A DNA stretch of 64,000 nucleotides from Chloroflexota bacterium (GTDB taxonomy: Bacteria > Chloroflexota > Chloroflexia > Chloroflexales > Herpetosiphonaceae), in NCBI GenBank assembly GCA_020161265.1, contig JAIUOC010000002.1, forward strand, positions 248,001-312,000. The letters are read 5' to 3'. The notes beneath the pieces are model-generated. The model saw nothing but the letters and a program-made list of their open reading frames with translations. It did no database searches and had not been told where the DNA came from. The position numbers and the translations under genes are program-made. Positions 54,516 to 61,857 of the stretch are shown in pieces (position 1 is the stretch's first letter; each line of letters begins with the position of its first letter).

Positions 54516-55073
54516 CTAGTAATCTTGCCAGAGTAACGTAGGTTTATTTTCCCAATTATTGCAAGATACTTGCAAAATCCGAATTGCGTCAGCGCTTGAA
54601 CCTTGCGATGGTTGCAAACATAAATTACTTTTCACCGATACGATGGAGTAGCTAGAACCCTTATATTTAAAGATCCAGCGCTGATTATTACCGCTATGAC
54701 AGCCCCATTGAACTATCCGTGCACCAACTGCATCTGAATCGTTGTAAATATCAAGGCATTTGCCAATTTGGCCGCTATAAGTTTTGATTTGAAAGGTATC
54801 ATAACCATTATGTGTGCCACCATCATACACAAAATCAAATTGTTCGTTAGCATCATTGTTACATGGCCATTGAATAATATCGGCACCATTATTTTGTGAG
54901 CCGCCATAAACATTCATACACTTTCCCGTGCCATTATTACGAATGCGAGAAACAAAAGCTTTATCAGGTGCTGATTTATCGCGTGATTGAGCGAGGCTGG
55001 AGGAACTGCCAATATGGTTAAAAATTGTGAGCAACATTCCGAGCAGTAACCATCCATACATCCGTTTGTTCAT
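54516..55073 (-). CDS. Secreted ricin-type beta-trefoil lectin protein
   Basis: A 185-residue exported protein. A signal peptide (YGWLLLGMLLTIFNHIGSSSSLAQ) is followed by a single ricin B / CBM13 beta-trefoil (about 40-185). The three repeats carry GKCMNVYGGSQNNGADIIQWPC, GKCLDIYNDSDAVGARIVQWGC...NQRWIF and NLCLQPSQGSSADAIRILQVSC; the QxW motif is clear in the second. It should bind a sugar ligand outside the cell. It has no catalytic domain. It lies downstream of a duplicated promoter block and the first LuxR-like gene. Its leader is about 190 bases long and contains a start-stop element. Confidence 0.85.
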   Translation of the reverse strand: MNKRMYGWLLLGMLLTIFNHIGSSSSLAQSRDKSAPDKAFVSRIRNNGTGKCMNVYGGSQNNGADIIQWPCNNDANEQFDFVYDGGTHNGYDTFQIKTYSGQIGKCLDIYNDSDAVGARIVQWGCHSGNNQRWIFKYKGSSYSIVSVKSNLCLQPSQGSSADAIRILQVSCNNWENKPTLLWQDY

Positions 55074-55222
55074 GCTAAAGACTCCAAATCTATAAAAATT
55101 CAGCTCAAATGGCCGTAAACCCTGCGATTAATTGAGTGGTCTAGGATCGATTGATGGATGGTGGCGGATGGTGAGCGGATTGTTGATGGTAGTAGATGAT
55201 CAATCGAAGCCAACAATAATGT

Positions 55223-55246
55223 TTACATTTCCAAGCTCCTTTACCT
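55223..55246 (-). other. Start-stop element (ATG-TAA) with strong Shine-Dalgarno
   Basis: On the minus strand AGGTAAAGGAG is followed seven bases later by ATG directly followed by TAA. The Shine-Dalgarno region aligns with that of the C39-peptidase gene in the second cassette copy, where the ATG opens a real gene. It is either a relic of a replaced gene start or a minimal regulatory uORF. Confidence 0.55.
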
Positions 55247-55265
55247 AATTTAAAGCTCGATCTGA

Positions 55266-55347
55266 TTGAGCAGAGTATAGTGATTGCGCTATAATTGCGC
55301 TGCTAGGATCTCCTAGCGTTCGACGGTGTATGCTAGGAATCCCGAGC
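55266..55347. promoter_or_regulatory. Cassette copy 1: 52-bp conserved block and two operator-like inverted repeats
   Basis: Positions 55266-55317 match 60043-60094 base for base. The block holds TTGAGC, 18-base spacer, TATAAT (plus strand), a minus-strand TATACT (55274-55279), a direct repeat ATTGCGCT at 55283 and 55294 (11-base period), and the inverted repeat GCTAGGATCTCCTAGC at 55302-55317. A second, imperfect copy GCTAGGAATCCCGAGC lies at 55332-55347, 30 bases centre to centre, overlapping the end of the LuxR-like gene. Confidence 0.65.
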
Positions 55348-55557
55348 ATGCTGCGTAGGTTCAATTGCTAGATAGGCAAGAGTGGCACTAACCCGATTAT
55401 CAACGTTGAGTTTGCTATAGATCCGATGCAGGCTGGTTTCGATCGAGCCTTCCGTCATGTGCAGCATATGGGCAATCACTTTGTTGGTTTTGCCTTGAAT
55501 CAGGATTTGCATAATCCGATGTTCGCTGGCGGTAAGTTGGGAAGTAGGTTTTTGCAT
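55333..55557 (-). CDS. Small LuxR-type HTH protein (copy 1)
   Basis: A 74-residue protein that is almost only a LuxR/GerE helix-turn-helix: SQLTASEHRIMQILIQGKTNKVIAHMLHMTEGSIETSLHRIYSKLNVDNRVSAT. It has no receiver or ligand domain. Its twin at 60110 differs at five residues only. The two operator-like inverted repeats of the cassette begin just beyond its stop codon, so autoregulation or control of the downstream secreted-protein gene is plausible. It is divergent from the FHA-winged-helix gene; the gap between them holds an inverted repeat (55626-55645). Confidence 0.85.
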   Translation of the reverse strand: MQKPTSQLTASEHRIMQILIQGKTNKVIAHMLHMTEGSIETSLHRIYSKLNVDNRVSATLAYLAIEPTQHARDS

Positions 55558-55625
55558 AGACGCTCCCTGTGATCTAGTTGATCTGAATGTGCTTTATCGT
55601 ACCCAACACCAGCTTGAAGATCCAT

Positions 55626-55645
55626 TTAGATCGTCTGTAATCTAA
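55626..55645. promoter_or_regulatory. Inverted repeat TTAGAT-N8-ATCTAA
   Basis: A perfect six-base inverted repeat lies in the divergent promoter gap between LuxR copy 1 and the FHA gene, about 40 bases before the FHA start. It is absent from the second cassette. Confidence 0.4.
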
Positions 55646-55684
55646 CTAAAGGTTTTTTAAGTTGCTTGTCGAGGTAACTTGTTT

Positions 55685-56335
55685 ATGATTCATACCACAA
55701 TGGCCTTGGCCAAACTACTTGCCACCGATAGTGTTATTACGCCGCAAAGCTATTTTTTACTTGATCAACCGTGTACACTAGGCCGAATGGTTGATAACAC
55801 AATCCATATCAATAAACGTAATGTTTCACGTTATCATGCTGAAATTTATTTCACCAATGATTGTTTTTGGCTCATCGATCGTGGCAGTCGTAATGGTACA
55901 TTCGTCAATGATTATCAAATCTCAAATGAGCAAGCTTATTGCTTACAAAATAACGATTTTATTGGATTTGGCAATAATCGACGGTTATTAGTATTCATCT
56001 GTGATAATGCCACTACTGAGCTAGAGCATGGTACTGAGTATAATCTCTTATTTATACAAAAAACCATGCAATTTTATTTAAACCAAAACCCCATACCGAT
56101 TCGTACAGGAACAATGAAATTCAAATTATTTAAACATCTTTACGATCATCGTGGGCAGATTTGTTCGCTCGAATCATGTATTTTGGCCTATCAACCGCCT
56201 AATTATCGCTATGACCCAAGCCTGGATAACCCTAACCTACATACTCATATGAGCCAATTACGAATGCTATTAGCAGATATTTATCCTGCTGAGATGATCG
56301 TAACCTATCCAAACCTTGGCTATAAGTTAGTATAA
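55685..56335 (+). CDS. FHA-domain regulator with C-terminal winged helix
   Basis: A 216-residue protein. The FHA domain (about 10-110) has the phosphothreonine pocket CTLGRMVDNTIHI, VSRYHAEI and DRGSRNGTFVND. The C-terminal 75 residues (MKFKLFKHLYDHRGQICSLESCI ... MIVTYPNLGYKLV) match an OmpR/PhoB-type winged helix, including the last hairpin motif with GYKL. This gives a pThr-reading DNA-binding protein. ATG 55685 has GAGG ten bases upstream; the TTG at 55679 is too close. The Ser/Thr kinase gene follows after 11 bases, so kinase and reader are cotranscribed. Confidence 0.85.
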   Translation: MIHTTMALAKLLATDSVITPQSYFLLDQPCTLGRMVDNTIHINKRNVSRYHAEIYFTNDCFWLIDRGSRNGTFVNDYQISNEQAYCLQNNDFIGFGNNRRLLVFICDNATTELEHGTEYNLLFIQKTMQFYLNQNPIPIRTGTMKFKLFKHLYDHRGQICSLESCILAYQPPNYRYDPSLDNPNLHTHMSQLRMLLADIYPAEMIVTYPNLGYKLV

Positions 56336-56346
56336 ATGGTGAGCCT

Positions 56347-58104
56347 ATGCAGGAATTAACGATCTTTGCGAAATCGAGTTTGATTCAACAACGCTATGAA
56401 GTCTATGAGATCATTGGGCGAGGTGGCTCAGGAGTTGTTTATAAAGCGCTTGATACAACGATTCGTCGTTGGGTTGCGATTAAGCAAATCGTGCGTGAGG
56501 ACGGAGATTATCGACGCTTTGTTCAAGAAACCCGTATTTTAGGTGGGCTTAATCATACAGGGTTGCCAGATGTCTATGATTGTTTTGTTGAACAAGCAAT
56601 GTTCTTTTTGGTGATGGAATTAATCGAAGGCGATACATTAGCTGATTTAATCGCTCGTCGGGCAACTTCTGCTACACTAGTACAAGTTTTGGAATGGGCT
56701 AAAAATTTAGGAGCGATTGTAGCATATTTACACAATCAAAATCCCTCAATCATTCATCGAGATATTAAACCGCAAAATATTAAAATAACTGCAAGCGGTA
56801 GTTTGATACTTTTGGATTTTGGGTTGGCCCAAGGATCAGCTCAAGTTACGGCTAATTCAACCCTTGATGAAGCAGCAACTGGATTTAGCCCCAACTATGC
56901 GGCCTTGGAGCAGCGCAATGGCAATCCGGTTAATCAGCGTAGCGATGTATATGCTGTTGCCGCAACCTTATATTATGCCCTAACTGGATACGCACCATGC
57001 GATTCGCTTGAACGAGCAGTGGCAATTGCTGCTGGTTTACCTGACCCGTTGATTGAATTAACCACCCATCGCCCAGAATTGCCTGTTCAGATCTTTCAAA
57101 CACTCCATAAGGCACTCACTTTGAATCCAGATCTGCGGCATCCCACAATTACCGATTTTATTCAGCAATTGTTGAGCGCTGATTCAGTTCAAGCCCTAAA
57201 TCGACGTTGGGTAAATCGGTTAGCTATTGGTTTAGCTAGCCTGATTGGGTTAGTTTTGCTGGCTTATCAAACTGGGCTTGCGACTTATGGGCTACAGCCA
57301 ACTCAGCTACCACAACCAAATGAATTAAGTCAATTACCAAGCTCAACAAGCCAATCAACACCTACCCGTAGCGATTTATGGGCCTTAGAAGCGCCACAAC
57401 CAACGCTTGTACCCACAATTTTACCAATTAGCCAATTGATTGACCCTGCTATTCTTCAAGCCGAAGCCGAACAACTCCGAGCTGAAGCAGCCTTGTGGAC
57501 ACCAATTTTTACTGATACGTTTGATCTCAATCGCCATAGTTGGCCTTTGACCACGACAATCGATGATTATGCCAATAGTACGCTCTCGATTAAGGATGGC
57601 AAACTTATTTTTGATGTAACCTCGATCACCCCAAGCGGCGCAACAGTTTGGGATCTCCACCGAACTATGCCCTATGTTGAAGATTTCGTAATCTCAGTTG
57701 ATATTACTTGTGCGGTTTGTGAACCTTCAACCGAGCCAGGTTTATTGTTTCGCGAGAGCGGTTTGCTCAATGCTGAAACGTATTATTTTTTACGGTATGG
57801 TATCAACCAACGAGTTCGAATTGCCAAGCAACTACCAGATAAAGCAGTCCGGGTGGCATGGGATGTTGCTTCGGTGATCGATACACGTAAGAATCTAACC
57901 AATCATCTTGAATTGATTGTCAAGGGTGATCATATGGCAGTCTTTATTAATAATCAATATGCCTTGAAACTTGAAGATAGTAGCTTTTCTTCTGGCTACC
58001 CGCATATTTTTGTTTGGGTCGATGGGGCCACAACCGAGCAAGTTACCTTTGATAATCTGTATCTCGCAGTGCCACAAGATCAAGTCAATCGGACAAAACG
58101 TTAA
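56347..58104 (+). CDS. Membrane Ser/Thr protein kinase with extracytoplasmic beta-sandwich
   Basis: A 585-residue Hanks-type kinase. The kinase domain (about 17-270) has the Gly loop IGRGGSGVVYKA, Lys46 (VAIK), catalytic HRDIKPQN with Asp139 and DFG Asp157; the activation segment has FSPNYAALEQ. One transmembrane helix (about 290-312, RLAIGLASLIGLVLLAYQTG) and a Pro/Ser/Thr linker separate it from a C-terminal beta-sandwich (about 395-575) of the LamG/DUF1080 type (FTDTFDLNRHSW, LIVKGDHMAVFINNQYAL, VTFDNLYLAVP). This part should be extracytoplasmic and may bind a glycan. The second gene of the FHA operon. Confidence 0.88.
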   Translation: MQELTIFAKSSLIQQRYEVYEIIGRGGSGVVYKALDTTIRRWVAIKQIVREDGDYRRFVQETRILGGLNHTGLPDVYDCFVEQAMFFLVMELIEGDTLADLIARRATSATLVQVLEWAKNLGAIVAYLHNQNPSIIHRDIKPQNIKITASGSLILLDFGLAQGSAQVTANSTLDEAATGFSPNYAALEQRNGNPVNQRSDVYAVAATLYYALTGYAPCDSLERAVAIAAGLPDPLIELTTHRPELPVQIFQTLHKALTLNPDLRHPTITDFIQQLLSADSVQALNRRWVNRLAIGLASLIGLVLLAYQTGLATYGLQPTQLPQPNELSQLPSSTSQSTPTRSDLWALEAPQPTLVPTILPISQLIDPAILQAEAEQLRAEAALWTPIFTDTFDLNRHSWPLTTTIDDYANSTLSIKDGKLIFDVTSITPSGATVWDLHRTMPYVEDFVISVDITCAVCEPSTEPGLLFRESGLLNAETYYFLRYGINQRVRIAKQLPDKAVRVAWDVASVIDTRKNLTNHLELIVKGDHMAVFINNQYALKLEDSSFSSGYPHIFVWVDGATTEQVTFDNLYLAVPQDQVNRTKR

Positions 58105-58156
58105 GTTCTAGATTAAATGAGGCTCAAGGACGAAAGCGACAATCTAGCAAATATGC

Positions 58157-58213
58157 GGCTATTGGCTTGCGCCAGCACTGATCATGATTTCCGTGATGGC
58201 ACAGCCAATAGCC
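58157..58213. terminator. Hairpin between convergent kinase and C39-peptidase genes
   Basis: Eleven-base arms GGCTATTGGCT (58157-58167) and AGCCAATAGCC (58203-58213) enclose a 35-base interior that itself has weaker pairing. There is no T run, but the stem lies just beyond both stop codons. A similar GGCTATTGGCTATTGG string occurs near 54390. Confidence 0.5.
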
Positions 58214-58222
58214 AATTTCCCG

Positions 58223-60004
58223 CTATTGTTGGTGAATTACCAATGGCAAATAGACCAGTTTTTCATCAATCGTATCGGGAGCCGATGGCAAACTGACTTG
58301 GATAATACCTGAAACATTGTTGCTGCTATCGCGGAAGCGTGCATAGTAGGTATCAGCGATTGGCATACTCACATACTGACTAAAAGGTTGCCAGACATCG
58401 CTTGCTTGTTGGTTCGTCCAAAGTTGCATTTCAGCGATTGAGCCTGCATTGCTACTAGCAGCTAGCTCCAAAAACATTTCAGTTTCGGTATTGCTGAATA
58501 ATGTGATGCTGCCAGTGATAACCTCAGTTTGGCTAGCTTGAATTGTTGCTGGAGCTGGGGCAGCTGGCTCAATTACAGGTTCTGCATTCAGCGAACCATT
58601 GCGTCGATAAATTCGCATACCACTTGGTGAGCCACGAAACCATGCTAATGTGCGACTAAGAGTGGTGCGTACACCATTTTTGATTCCAGGATCATTCACC
58701 ATATAATTAGCTGGATTCGTCCCGCTTCCTCCAAGTACCACGATGAAGTGCGTTGAATTAGCGTTGCTTAATTCTACGATGACTGGCCCTTGACGCAGCT
58801 CTTGTTCCAAACGAGCATAACTAAAGCTATTGATTCGTTGGACAAAGCGTACTTTATTATTGCTACAAGGCAGAATTTTAAAGCTGCCCCAATTCATACC
58901 ACAGGCATGATCGCCAAGGCAACTATTGAGGGTGCCTGGATTTTTATCTGCACCATAAAACTGAAAGACCATGGCAACCGAAGTTAATGCACAGCCTACA
59001 TTACCAATGGTATTGTTACATGCTCCAATCCGATTATTCTTCCAAGCTGGATCGGCTTGCCAGAAAAAGGGCACATTCCATGGTGGGTTTGGGCTTGGAG
59101 GTGGCGGCGGTGGCGGGGTTGGTGGGGGACTTGGTGCAGCCAATGAAATATAGATTCGGCGTTGAATATTGTGCCATGAATTACTGATTGTGCTGTGGTA
59201 GCGAATGTGCAGGGTTGCAGCACCAACCGGAAGGGCACGAATATTGATGCTTGCCAGAAAGCCTGTGTTGCGAAAACGCATATCGCCATAAGCATCTTGC
59301 ACATCTTGGCGTGGCTGTCCCGTTGAAACCGCATTGATTAAGCTATTGTTTAGGCGAACTTCGATTGCATCAACGCCTGAAGTTCCGTTAATCGATCCAA
59401 GATCACCTGCCCACCCACGAAGATTGATTTGGCCAAAAACAACCTGATTTTCAAGTGGCTCGTTAATATCACCGACAGGGACTGAAACTGCGGCTGGTTG
59501 GGCAGGGCTACAACTGCCAACCCCAATTCCGGTAATCCGACAATCGGTACGAGCGGCTCGTTGCATAAATGCTTCTTCGCTGAGAATCCCATCATTAGCA
59601 GTTGCATAAATTCTAAAAACTTCTCCAGTATTGGCTTGAGCATTGATAACAACCCGCCACCAACCGCTGGCATTTGGCGTACAACCACCACTGCTTCCAG
59701 CCCGATGGAATAATTCGCTGCGCCAATTGTTGACACTTTCTGAGCGAAATTGAAAATTCGGCGAATCGGCACAAATTCGTAAACCAATGGTCGTTTTGCC
59801 ATTTTCAGCAATAAAAAATATTGGAAGACTATGAACGGTCGATTCGGGTTGGGTGGTATCAATGCTTGTCGTGATAGCGATTGGCTCGGTGGCCCGAGCC
59901 ATATGGCTGCCCCAAAAAAGGCTTTGCAACACGATCAAGCAAGTCATTAAACACTGGCTAAGGCGCAACCATCGATAACGGGGGCTTACTCGGTTATGCT
60001 TCAT
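58223..60004 (-). CDS. Secreted C39-like peptidase with LP tail
   Basis: A 593-residue exported protein. After a signal peptide (LSQCLMTCLIVLQSLFWGSHMA) comes an N-terminal beta-rich region and an Ig-like part (GQINLRGWAGDLGS, VDAIEVRLN), then a poly-Pro linker (about 292-306). The C39_2 peptidase domain follows (about 310-470): VPFFWQADPAWKNN, Cys338 in GCALTSVAMVF and His419 in STHFIVVLGG. The C-terminal part is another beta domain, ending LVYLPLVIHQQ. The ATG has AAAGGAGG just before it and lies 39 bases past the duplicated cassette block, so a promoter there may serve it. Substrate unknown. Confidence 0.85.
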   Translation of the reverse strand: MKHNRVSPRYRWLRLSQCLMTCLIVLQSLFWGSHMARATEPIAITTSIDTTQPESTVHSLPIFFIAENGKTTIGLRICADSPNFQFRSESVNNWRSELFHRAGSSGGCTPNASGWWRVVINAQANTGEVFRIYATANDGILSEEAFMQRAARTDCRITGIGVGSCSPAQPAAVSVPVGDINEPLENQVVFGQINLRGWAGDLGSINGTSGVDAIEVRLNNSLINAVSTGQPRQDVQDAYGDMRFRNTGFLASINIRALPVGAATLHIRYHSTISNSWHNIQRRIYISLAAPSPPPTPPPPPPPSPNPPWNVPFFWQADPAWKNNRIGACNNTIGNVGCALTSVAMVFQFYGADKNPGTLNSCLGDHACGMNWGSFKILPCSNNKVRFVQRINSFSYARLEQELRQGPVIVELSNANSTHFIVVLGGSGTNPANYMVNDPGIKNGVRTTLSRTLAWFRGSPSGMRIYRRNGSLNAEPVIEPAAPAPATIQASQTEVITGSITLFSNTETEMFLELAASSNAGSIAEMQLWTNQQASDVWQPFSQYVSMPIADTYYARFRDSSNNVSGIIQVSLPSAPDTIDEKLVYLPLVIHQQ

Positions 60005-60042
60005 CGGCGGCCTCCTTTTACCTCATTTAACATGTTTGTGGA

Positions 60043-60124
60043 TTGAGCAGAGTATAGTGATTGCGCTATAATTGCGCTGCTAGGATCTCCTAGCTTTAGC
60101 TGATCCATGCTAGGAATCCCTAGC
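60043..60124. promoter_or_regulatory. Cassette copy 2: 52-bp conserved block and two operator-like inverted repeats
   Basis: The same 52 bases as in copy 1 occupy 60043-60094. The inverted repeat GCTAGGATCTCCTAGC is at 60079-60094 and a second, perfect GCTAGGAATCCCTAGC at 60109-60124, centres 30 bases apart and inside a longer palindrome (CCATGCTAGG / CCTAGCATGG). The minus-strand TATACT at 60051-60056 would start transcription about 40 bases before the peptidase ATG. The plus-strand TATAAT at 60067-60072 reads across the LuxR-like gene. Confidence 0.65.
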
Positions 60125-60334
60125 ATGGTTATTGGGTTCAATTGCTAGATAGGCAAGAGTAGCACTAACCCGATTATCAACATTGAGTTTGCTATAGATC
60201 CGATGCAGACTGGTTTCGATCGAGCCTTCCGTCATGTGCAGCATGTGGGCAATCACTTTATTGGTTTTGCCTTGAATCAGGATTTGCATAATCCGATGTT
60301 CGCTGGCAGTAAGTTGGGATAGTGGCGTTGGCAT
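60110..60334 (-). CDS. Small LuxR-type HTH protein (copy 2)
   Basis: The 74-residue twin of the protein at 55333: 69 of 74 residues are identical, with changes at positions 2, 3 and 5 and two near the C-terminus (EPNNHARDS instead of EPTQHARDS). The many synonymous changes are few transitions, so the duplication is recent. It has only the LuxR/GerE HTH. Its own promoter would lie in the 110-base gap before LuxR-like gene 3. Downstream on the minus strand is the C39 peptidase gene, so HTH and exported enzyme could be cotranscribed or the HTH could act on the block between them. Confidence 0.85.
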   Translation of the reverse strand: MPTPLSQLTASEHRIMQILIQGKTNKVIAHMLHMTEGSIETSLHRIYSKLNVDNRVSATLAYLAIEPNNHARDS

Positions 60335-60437
60335 AACTACTCCATATCTAGCCTATTCCAATCAAAATATTTGAAATGGCTACTACATCGCTCGGTCTTG
60401 GGATATTGCTATGATAAGCAATGATCGCGGTAGCCAC

Positions 60438-60459
60438 ATCGCTAATTTTAGCGATTTTT
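60438..60459 (+). terminator. Plus-strand terminator over the end of LuxR-like gene 3
   Basis: Stem ATCGCT / AGCGAT, loop AATTTT, then TTTT. It is oriented for the plus strand, where no gene ends. It could end an antisense transcript from the plus-strand promoter at 60043-60072. Confidence 0.5.
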
Positions 60460-60669
60460 GGCTGTTGTTGTTTGTTGGAATGTTGATAATCTGCGGGCCG
60501 CATGCGCCGCTTGTTGGCGCGATTTCACCCCTAGCTTGCTAGCACTACTACGCAGATGGGTGCGAACTGTCCAGATCGAAATTGATAGGCGCTCAGCAAT
60601 CTCAGCATCACTCCAGCCCTGATCAACTAATGCCAAAACATCGTATTCACGGGCGCTCAGCTTATGCAT
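60448..60669 (-). CDS. Small LuxR-type HTH protein 3
   Basis: A 73-residue protein, again only a GerE-type HTH: KLSAREYDVLALVDQGWSDAEIAERLSISIWTVRTHLRSSASKLGVKSRQQAAHAA. It is clearly distinct from the other two (different recognition helix IWTVRTHL). It lies about 110 bases upstream of LuxR copy 2 on the same strand, making a run of two small regulators before the peptidase gene. A GGAGAC Shine-Dalgarno precedes the ATG. Its targets are unknown. Confidence 0.82.
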   Translation of the reverse strand: MHKLSAREYDVLALVDQGWSDAEIAERLSISIWTVRTHLRSSASKLGVKSRQQAAHAARRLSTFQQTTTAKNR

Positions 60670-60870
60670 ACGCGAGGTCTCCTTATATCAATTGAGCCTT
60701 CTGAATGGTCTAAAGCCAGATGCTGCGCAGCACAAGAACTTGTTGGAATGACTGTAACAGTAGCGGGGTTGTACGAGTTATATTTTTTTAGCACTCAGCT
60801 ATAACTTTGAGCTTTAATCACAATCTGGATGGTTTTTTGGATGCAATCCTATGGATTTGTTGGGGGAACC

Positions 60871-61857
60871 ATGGATCATCGCTATCAAGCCTATACCTTC
60901 GCTGAATTGCTTCGGCTGTTCTTTGAGCGAAGCCGTGAGGAACAGATAAACCAGAATCTGCTAGCCCAAAAAGTTGGTGTAGCAGTGCCAACCTTAAGCA
61001 ACTGGTTTAACGGCAAATACACACCGCGCTTTAAAGATCAAGTCTTGCGGCTCGCGCAAGCACTTGGGCTAACCGCTTTAGAGGCAGATTTATTGCTTTG
61101 TTCGGTCAAGAATGCTTGGAATACCTACGGCACGCCGCATGATGTACTGCAGAAATACACAATTGTGCGCTATCGCGAAGAATTGCTCTCAAGTCGCCAC
61201 AGTGCCAGCACCGACGATATTTCGTTAGCGACGGTACAAGCCACATGGCAACTTTATTTTTATGATCTATTTGTGGGCAATAATCAACATTGGGGGTTAG
61301 GCTATAAAGATGATGGGGTATGTCGAGTTGAACGAACGATCACCGATGGAGCTTATCAACTTACCTTACACAACCGCTTTCATAATGATGTTTTTATCGG
61401 TGGCGATTCCCATTGTTTTGCACCACCGATTTATTATCTCAGTGTTTACGCGAAACGCTGCTCGGGCGGAAGTGAAAATGATGGCTTTGCGCTCATTTTT
61501 GAGGAAATGAGCGATGCTAGCCATGCAATTTTCCGAATCCGCGACCAGCCCCAATTGGCATCGGTGATCAGCACGCGCAATGGTGGCGACAGCTTCCAAA
61601 TCCATCTTGATCGAAAACATGTTGCAACAATTCGTCCAGGCGAGATCAACCAATTAGGCATGTTGGTGATTCATAATCAGCATCGTTTTTTTGTCAATAA
61701 TGTTTGGATTGGCTCAGCCGAAATTGAGCGTATTCCTCATAGTCGGCTTGATGTTGGCATTATTAGCCAATCGATGGTTCCAGTTGTTTGTACCTTCCAA
61801 GATTTTCGGGTCTATATTCCGCCCAATATCTATGAACAACCCGAAATACTAGCTTAG
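60871..61857 (+). CDS. HTH regulator fused to a LamG-like beta-sandwich
   Basis: A protein of about 328 residues. The N-terminal part (5-80) is a Cro/CI-type HTH: NQNLLAQKVGVAVPTLSNWFNGKYTPRFKDQVLRLAQALG. Residues about 125-325 are a beta-sandwich like that of the kinase at 56347: LGMLVIHNQHRFFVNNVWIG corresponds to LELIVKGDHMAVFINNQYAL, and CTFQDFRVYIPP to VTFDNLYLAVP. It has no membrane segment, so it is a cytoplasmic regulator that may bind the same kind of ligand. Of three ATGs (60829, 60841, 60871) the last has GGGGGA upstream. Divergent from LuxR-like gene 3. Confidence 0.78.
   Translation: MDHRYQAYTFAELLRLFFERSREEQINQNLLAQKVGVAVPTLSNWFNGKYTPRFKDQVLRLAQALGLTALEADLLLCSVKNAWNTYGTPHDVLQKYTIVRYREELLSSRHSASTDDISLATVQATWQLYFYDLFVGNNQHWGLGYKDDGVCRVERTITDGAYQLTLHNRFHNDVFIGGDSHCFAPPIYYLSVYAKRCSGGSENDGFALIFEEMSDASHAIFRIRDQPQLASVISTRNGGDSFQIHLDRKHVATIRPGEINQLGMLVIHNQHRFFVNNVWIGSAEIERIPHSRLDVGIISQSMVPVVCTFQDFRVYIPPNIYEQPEILA

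Follow-up and report, generated by a model that had tools for sequence, protein, structure and literature searches.

A locus was found in a genome of the genus Herpetosiphon in which the regulatory genes and their control DNA are retained from species to species and the secreted product varies. It is located in the window, i.e., the whole 64,000-bp stretch analyzed here (contig 2, positions 248001-312000), within a genome of 6.04 Mb. Two genes of exported proteins (hereafter, cargo) each lie behind a gene for LuxR74, a small LuxR/GerE-type helix-turn-helix (HTH) protein. The locus also contains a second protein of this kind, Lux3, and a divergently encoded regulator combining an HTH with a putative beta-sandwich domain (HTH-sandwich regulator). 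The interpretation that we favor, with somewhat better than even confidence, is that this is one of several Herpetosiphon exoenzyme loci with fixed regulators and control DNA and a variable secreted product, in which LuxR74 activates the cargo gene. From sequence comparison, we infer direct control of the cargo and a role of the locus in predation. The most unusual feature, namely that the slot cargo differs between species and that the design recurs elsewhere, is visible only by comparison.

Six Herpetosiphon genomes were compared: the window genome (G000), H. aurantiacus DSM 785 (G001), H. geysericola DSM 7119 (G002), H. giganteus DSM 589 (G003), a further Herpetosiphon species (G004) and H. 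llansteffanensis CA052B (G005). Cargo, LuxR74, Lux3 and HTH-sandwich gene follow one another in this order in all six, and with the layout thus syntenic in every genome, it can be considered more than chance. The patB gene adjoins the locus in five genomes; the exception is H. aurantiacus, where the cargo is flanked by other genes. The slot holds genes for a lectin and a C39-like peptidase in the window genome, a lectin in H. giganteus, a CHAP amidase with repeats in H. aurantiacus and H. llansteffanensis, and an M23 endopeptidase with the same repeats in H. geysericola and G004. As judged by eye from the translations, the signal peptides appear intact, and so do the catalytic residues in the CHAP, M23 (HxH) and C39 (Cys, His, Asp) proteins. 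In the genomes inspected, neither the interval from LuxR74 to the cargo nor that from the cargo to patB contains a further gene, and no adjoining immunity gene was seen.

The control DNA is part of a 295-bp block that occurs twice in the window. Besides LuxR74, each copy includes two palindromes, which lie at the stop codon of this gene and behind it, a TATACT element and the beginning of the leader. The preliminary description of this region assumed two duplicated cassettes, each including its exported protein. This holds for LuxR74 and the operator, but duplication of whole cassettes was rejected: the similarity ends at the block edges, and the outside sequence and the exported genes are unrelated. 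LuxR74 and Lux3 (73-74 aa) each consist of a single GerE domain (E 2e-13 to 7e-16) with no other domain. The palindromes lie approximately 30 bp apart between LuxR74 and the cargo gene, together with the -10-like element. Their centres fall at about -42.5 and -72, as calculated from the -10 element with an assumed transcription start, and no recognisable -35 was found on the cargo strand of the block. In all seven copies with cargo, a segment of 84-85 bp can be aligned that extends from the distal palindrome as far as CTGCTCAA; its proximal palindrome and promoter are almost invariant, whereas the two clades described below share only 41-57% of fourfold sites in the HTH-sandwich gene and patB. 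The operator-like block proposed earlier near the LuxR genes is strongly conserved in the genus. TATACT is invariant in these seven copies and lost in two cargo-less ones, the second LuxR74 copies of H. geysericola (G002b) and H. llansteffanensis (G005b). These copies have also lost the distal palindrome; because they keep the proximal one and yet lack TATACT, this element appears to be tied to the cargo. Because of the overlap between the distal palindrome and the LuxR74 stop codon, the site partly dictates the C-terminal residues of the protein (HARDS/HARDA). The exact proximal palindrome occurs only twice in the 6 Mb genome (55302-55317 and 60079-60094). A wide regulon under it was rejected: with up to three mismatches, 28 genome matches were obtained versus 22 for the reversed control, and only the window pair was exact. 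On the opposite strand, both window blocks carry a sigma-70-like promoter, TTGAGC-18-TATAAT (55266-55295 and 60043-60072, plus strand). This promoter was found in most copies; transcripts initiated from it, at the palindrome, would read into LuxR74 in antisense direction.

A similar arrangement was found at other loci. The window genome contains 29 LuxR HTH domains, exactly five of them in HTH-only proteins (open reading frames of 86 aa or less), and the HTH-sandwich profile matches exactly three genes. All five HTH-only LuxR genes share loci with these three, four at a distance within 0.6 kb and LuxR74 A at 5.3 kb. At locus II (C1:649-653k), the cargo is C39 in the window genome, M23 with DUF5648 in H. 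aurantiacus and H. giganteus, and M23 with CBM_4_9 repeats in G004; behind the LuxR gene, this locus has a conserved site of its own, of the ACACGTTCGTGT type. The C39 cargo proteins of loci I and II in the window genome are 53% identical over the peptidase part. At locus III (C2:186-189k), the cargo of the window genome has CBM_4_9 repeats, and that of H. giganteus has CBM_4_9 repeats with an M23-like stretch, the latter recognized by eye only. Two genomes, from two other families of the order, contained related arrangements. In one (G070), an exported-protein gene lies behind a LuxR gene (98 aa) that adjoins an HTH-sandwich gene; in the other (G040), the HTH-sandwich gene is divergent from an exported C39 and Big_7 protein, without a LuxR gene. 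HTH-sandwich genes are rare outside the genus: an earlier profile search of genome contigs found them in Herpetosiphon only, and the profile search of the phylum, which added few others, gave matches in 13 of 400 genomes, 6 of them Herpetosiphon. The locus III copy of the HTH-sandwich gene in H. giganteus (L111, C5:171193-172133) is divided between two frames and may be broken.

The features of the locus are listed in Table 1. All genes named in the preliminary description were recovered as open reading frames at their places, with domains supported by profile matches.

Table 1. Genes and control elements of the locus in the window (position 1 is the first letter of the window)
Feature	Position	Strand	Characteristics
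Cargo A, exported ricin-type beta-trefoil lectin, 185 aa	54516..55073	-	RicinB_lectin_2 E 2e-24
Duplicated block, copy A (LuxR74 and operator/promoter)	55264..55558	-	91% identical to 60041-60335
-10-like TATACT of cargo A	55274..55279	-	same element for cargo B at 60051-60056
Proximal palindrome GCTAGGAGATCCTAGC, copy A	55302..55317	-	centre about -42.5; conserved in genus
Distal palindrome, copy A	55330..55349	-	overlaps LuxR74 A stop codon
LuxR74 A, HTH-only LuxR/GerE, 74 aa	55333..55557	-	GerE E 2e-13; in 6/6 genomes
Inverted-repeat element AAGATCYATTTAGATCG between LuxR74 A and FHA gene	55617..55633		aligned in three species with FHA and kinase genes
FHA-winged-helix regulator, 216 aa	55685..56335	+	alternative start 55679; FHA E 8e-18, Trans_reg_C E 3e-5
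Transmembrane Ser/Thr kinase with outside domain, 585 aa	56347..58104	+	Pkinase E 1e-35; orthologues 67-69%
Cargo B, exported C39-like peptidase, 593 aa	58223..60004	-	Peptidase_C39_2 E 1e-7
Duplicated block, copy B (LuxR74 and operator/promoter)	60041..60335	-	295 bp, 91% to copy A
Proximal palindrome, copy B	60079..60094	-	exact match to copy A
Distal palindrome ATGCTAGGGATTCCTAGCAT, copy B	60107..60126	-	spans LuxR74 B stop codon
LuxR74 B, 74 aa	60110..60334	-	GerE E 2e-13; 93% to LuxR74 A
Lux3, second HTH-only LuxR, 73 aa, upstream of LuxR74 B	60448..60669	-	GerE E 7e-16; in 6/6 genomes
Divergent control region, GAGTGCTAAAAAAAYATAACT and CAAGTTCTTGTGCTGCGCAGCA, between Lux3 and HTH-sandwich gene	60721..60796		both elements nearly invariant in six genomes
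HTH-sandwich regulator, 342 aa	60829..61857	+	conserved start 60871; HTH_3 E 7e-6; in 6/6 genomes

In the proposed mechanism, a LuxR74 dimer would bind both palindromes, the near one at about -42.5 and the far one at about -72, and would then activate the cargo promoter. In class II promoters of the LuxR/luxI type, a palindrome is centred at about -42.5 before a promoter with a poor -35, and the LuxR74 block has the same geometry and a similarly poor -35. However, the Herpetosiphon locus includes neither an autoinducer domain nor a synthase, and a second palindrome is located some 30 bp further upstream. Among GerE-type HTH-only regulators of the LuxR/NarL family, of which Bacillus GerE is an example, LuxR74 is similar in being a single GerE HTH of about 74 aa without a receiver or ligand domain; it differs in that its gene lies directly upstream of the presumed target, a palindrome covers its own stop codon and an HTH-sandwich regulator accompanies it. 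LuxR74 would itself be set by upstream inputs, namely the divergent HTH-sandwich regulator and, in half of the species, also a transmembrane kinase and an FHA-winged-helix regulator, the HTH-sandwich and FHA proteins possibly acting on the conserved divergent regions to control the small LuxR genes. Signal perception would fall to a sensor domain common to the kinase (outside the cell) and the HTH-sandwich regulator (inside). Walls and surface glycans of other bacteria are the most likely targets of the products, and cargo turnover under fixed control would diversify the secreted arsenal. A broader interpretation, to which we give slightly less than an even chance, extends this to at least three loci: the HTH-sandwich sensor and the operators would be fixed along with one or two HTH-only LuxR proteins, non-homologous secreted lytic enzymes and lectins would be exchanged across species and loci, in part through transfer of the catalytic domain to a common repeat, and in some species the kinase–FHA branch, whose outside sensor domain is of the same type, would feed the same switch, giving the predatory bacterium a modular secreted arsenal anchored by its regulators.

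Several points weigh against the favored interpretation. LuxR74 could repress the cargo gene instead of activating it, and the opposite-strand promoter, a better match than the one on the cargo strand, could explain part of the block conservation. No operator common to the HTH-sandwich or FHA proteins and the LuxR74 site was found, so the upstream inputs rest on gene order; in addition, the kinase–FHA pair is missing in three of the six species. The wall-cutting enzymes may serve self-remodelling. Finally, six genomes do not separate cargo exchange from tandem birth-and-death or old polymorphism.

The history of the cargo was analyzed against the core genes, which form two clades, {window genome, G001, G004} and {G002, G003, G005}. 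Each clade contains one CHAP, one M23 and one lectin species; the cargo is not distributed along species clades. Identity between the clades, given for protein and fourfold sites, was 73.5%/49% for the lectin (cargo A and its orthologue in the same slot of H. giganteus), 78%/51% for CHAP and 85%/53% for M23. The fourfold sites of the HTH-sandwich gene and patB likewise showed only 41-57% agreement. Because the cargo diverges across the clades as core genes do, the cargo types are as old as the clade split, and recent horizontal transfer of cargo between the clades is not favored. Within the C-terminal repeat shared by CHAP and M23 proteins, the first 100 nt group by enzyme type (13:3 informative sites) and the remainder groups by clade (29:1 sites; AU p about 0.001); this switch is a recombination breakpoint, which fits inter-strain exchange and gene conversion among once-adjacent units alike. 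No recombinase was found among the genes of the locus, with no further search made; the shared flanks, i.e., the operator block and the C-terminal repeat, would suit homologous recombination. In place of inter-strain exchange, the variation may derive from an ancestral tandem LuxR74-cargo array through differential losses and gene conversion among co-resident units, and we regard this as an evenly balanced possibility. It agrees with the age of the cargo types, with the two units kept in the window genome, whose LuxR74 and operator are homogenised (fourfold 87%), and with the second, cargo-less unit retained in two species; however, no genome has CHAP and M23 together at the locus, although the repeats are homogenised within each clade. 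The combination of different catalytic domains (CHAP or M23) with a shared C-terminal repeat domain resembles modular bacteriolysins and endolysins, but in Herpetosiphon the variation is located at a chromosomal slot downstream of a fixed regulator and operator, and extends to a lectin and C39. CHAP and C39 begin directly after the conserved AAGGAGG of the block, as fusions to it; the lectin has its own leader and ribosome-binding site. At both lectin loci (55223-55242, minus strand, and the same place in L064), the ribosome-binding site AAAGGAG is conserved, and the ATG behind it runs straight into a stop codon (ATGTAA / ATGTAG); the lectin itself begins about 150 nt later, with a ribosome-binding site of its own. 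The ATG-stop looks like what remains of a cargo start that was replaced, or else like a start-stop leader.

The kinase–FHA pair was found in the window genome, H. geysericola and H. llansteffanensis only, each time divergent from a LuxR74 copy. The neighborhood is conserved in relatives, as the preliminary description required, the core of the locus in all six genomes and this pair in three of them. The kinase gene begins 11 bp past the FHA gene, and its product has a hydrophobic membrane stretch. In the FHA regulator, the FHA domain occupies residues 32-98 and an OmpR-type winged helix (Trans_reg_C) residues 141-217, the latter matched over its full length with 24.3 bits, under the Pfam cut-off of 26.2. 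The phosphothreonine-binding residues (G33 R34, S48 R49 H51, N70 G71) and the kinase motifs GxGxxG, AIK, HRD and DFG are invariant in the three orthologues. The activation-loop threonines T168 and T172 are conserved, which is the sole hint that the kinase makes the phosphothreonine read by the FHA domain. In PknH–EmbR of Mycobacterium tuberculosis, the FHA domain is required for the interaction of kinase and regulator (PMC4601284). The Herpetosiphon pair similarly joins a transmembrane Ser/Thr kinase carrying an outside domain to a regulator with FHA and an OmpR-type winged helix, with the residues intact, and may act in the same manner. By this analogy, the pair appears to be of a known kind, and the earlier statement that the composition is undescribed does not apply to this part. 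However, the FHA domain is N-terminal and the winged helix C-terminal here, the genes are 11 bp apart and the outside domain is homologous to the sensor domain of the HTH-sandwich regulator. The layout of SARP regulators (N-terminal winged helix, BTAD, C-terminal FHA) was not observed, with no BTAD match in the FHA regulator.

In the first profile comparison, of HTH-sandwich orthologues from the genus with the whole kinase, nothing was found (1%); the homology became clear once paralogues were added (hhalign, 185 columns, 93%, pairwise E 3e-7). Judging from this comparison, the kinase outside domain is a remote homologue of the C-terminal sensor domain of the HTH-sandwich regulator. No clear signal or membrane segment was seen in the HTH-sandwich protein; the kinase and this regulator would therefore present their related domains on opposite membrane faces. 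For the outside domain, similarity to known families was weak, with 3-keto-disaccharide hydrolase matched at E 0.006 and levanase CBM66 at E 0.03; on this basis a glycan is plausible as the signal of the shared domain. Both domains described earlier as beta-sandwiches are present, but AlphaFold models of the kinase outside domain and the HTH-sandwich regulator (mean pLDDT 44 and 35) left this fold unconfirmed; that they adopt it is what we infer. It is possible, if somewhat doubtful, that the kinase and FHA proteins are an ordinary PknH–EmbR-like pair that has its targets elsewhere and merely neighbors the cassette. FHA-winged-helix proteins matched the profile in 32 of 158 genomes of the class, and at 11 of 20 loci checked outside the genus, in other Chloroflexales, a kinase gene lies within about 1.4 kb; such pairs are common there without LuxR74 or HTH-sandwich genes nearby, in line with the absence of the pair from half of the Herpetosiphon species. 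What speaks for a connection is the shared sensor domain and the divergence from LuxR74 in both clades, which persists despite a differing position in the locus and includes a conserved intergenic element, GATC-YATTTA-GATC.

It is unlikely that the cargo enzymes remodel the wall or sheath of the producer rather than attack prey. Such remodelling is a frequent role of CHAP and M23 enzymes, but varied enzyme chemistry together with a lectin at one slot fits outward conflict better. Moreover, Herpetosiphon is known as a secreting wolf-pack predator (PMC6210107), and L-ornithine is a usual constituent of Chloroflexi peptidoglycan (PMC3368417), in contrast to that of most prey. Given this wall and the predatory habit, the missing immunity genes do not speak against predation. 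A variable effector at a fixed locus is also characteristic of polymorphic toxin loci; in Herpetosiphon, however, the varying catalytic part is N-terminal and the repeat C-terminal, the lectin and C39 share neither, no immunity gene or common trafficking domain was seen, and the conserved part consists of regulators with their DNA.

We consider it improbable that LuxR74 mainly regulates itself, with the block as a feedback site, the antisense promoter repressed by palindrome-bound LuxR74 and the exported genes incidental. TTGAGC-18-TATAAT occurs in both window copies, and the opposite-strand -10 and the proximal palindrome persist in the cargo-less copies; however, TATACT and the distal palindrome are lost exactly in these, and an exported gene lies behind all seven others. 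An insertion hotspot, at which exported genes arrive by chance between patB and the regulators without being controlled by them, would explain cargo unrelated between species and a lectin with its own leader and ribosome-binding site, but it is very improbable, as the cargo is exclusively exported wall or glycan proteins, the CHAP and C39 starts are fused right behind AAGGAGG, all five HTH-only LuxR genes are placed likewise and the arrangement is repeated at loci II and III and in other families.

No publication describing the arrangement of a fixed regulator and variable cargo was found in a search that covered mainly the open literature, and as far as this search reached, the design is undescribed. 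The Herpetosiphon genome papers treat regulators in general terms only (PMC6210107, PMC3368417). The locus bears on the question of how secreted lytic factors are switched on and diversified in wolf-pack predators such as Herpetosiphon, and it is a small, testable unit in which a 74-aa regulator is combined with two palindromes and a single cargo gene. The locus also includes a kinase and a one-component regulator with a common sensor domain on opposite membrane sides. If the favored interpretation is true, HTH-only LuxR genes could serve as markers behind which to look for the secreted arsenal, and the locus would be a clear case of evolution keeping the trigger and replacing the weapon.

Further small LuxR genes were noted in the genus. 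No close relative of one group (L067-L070) was found in the window genome or G004; it occurs in H. aurantiacus, H. geysericola, H. giganteus and H. llansteffanensis and encodes proteins of 78-82 aa that are 53-61% identical to LuxR74, with an exported glycoside-hydrolase-like protein encoded on one side and a luciferase-like oxidoreductase on the other. In H. geysericola and H. llansteffanensis (L116, L117), a gene for an exported C39 protein with an inhibitor I36/crystallin-like part is convergent to a 79-aa LuxR gene, unlike the cassette orientation. H. geysericola also has HTH-only LuxR genes beside small or very large exported proteins, mostly of unknown function (L113, L118, L120, L122); some are divergent from other HTH regulators, one of them fused to a sulfatase-modifying-factor-like domain.

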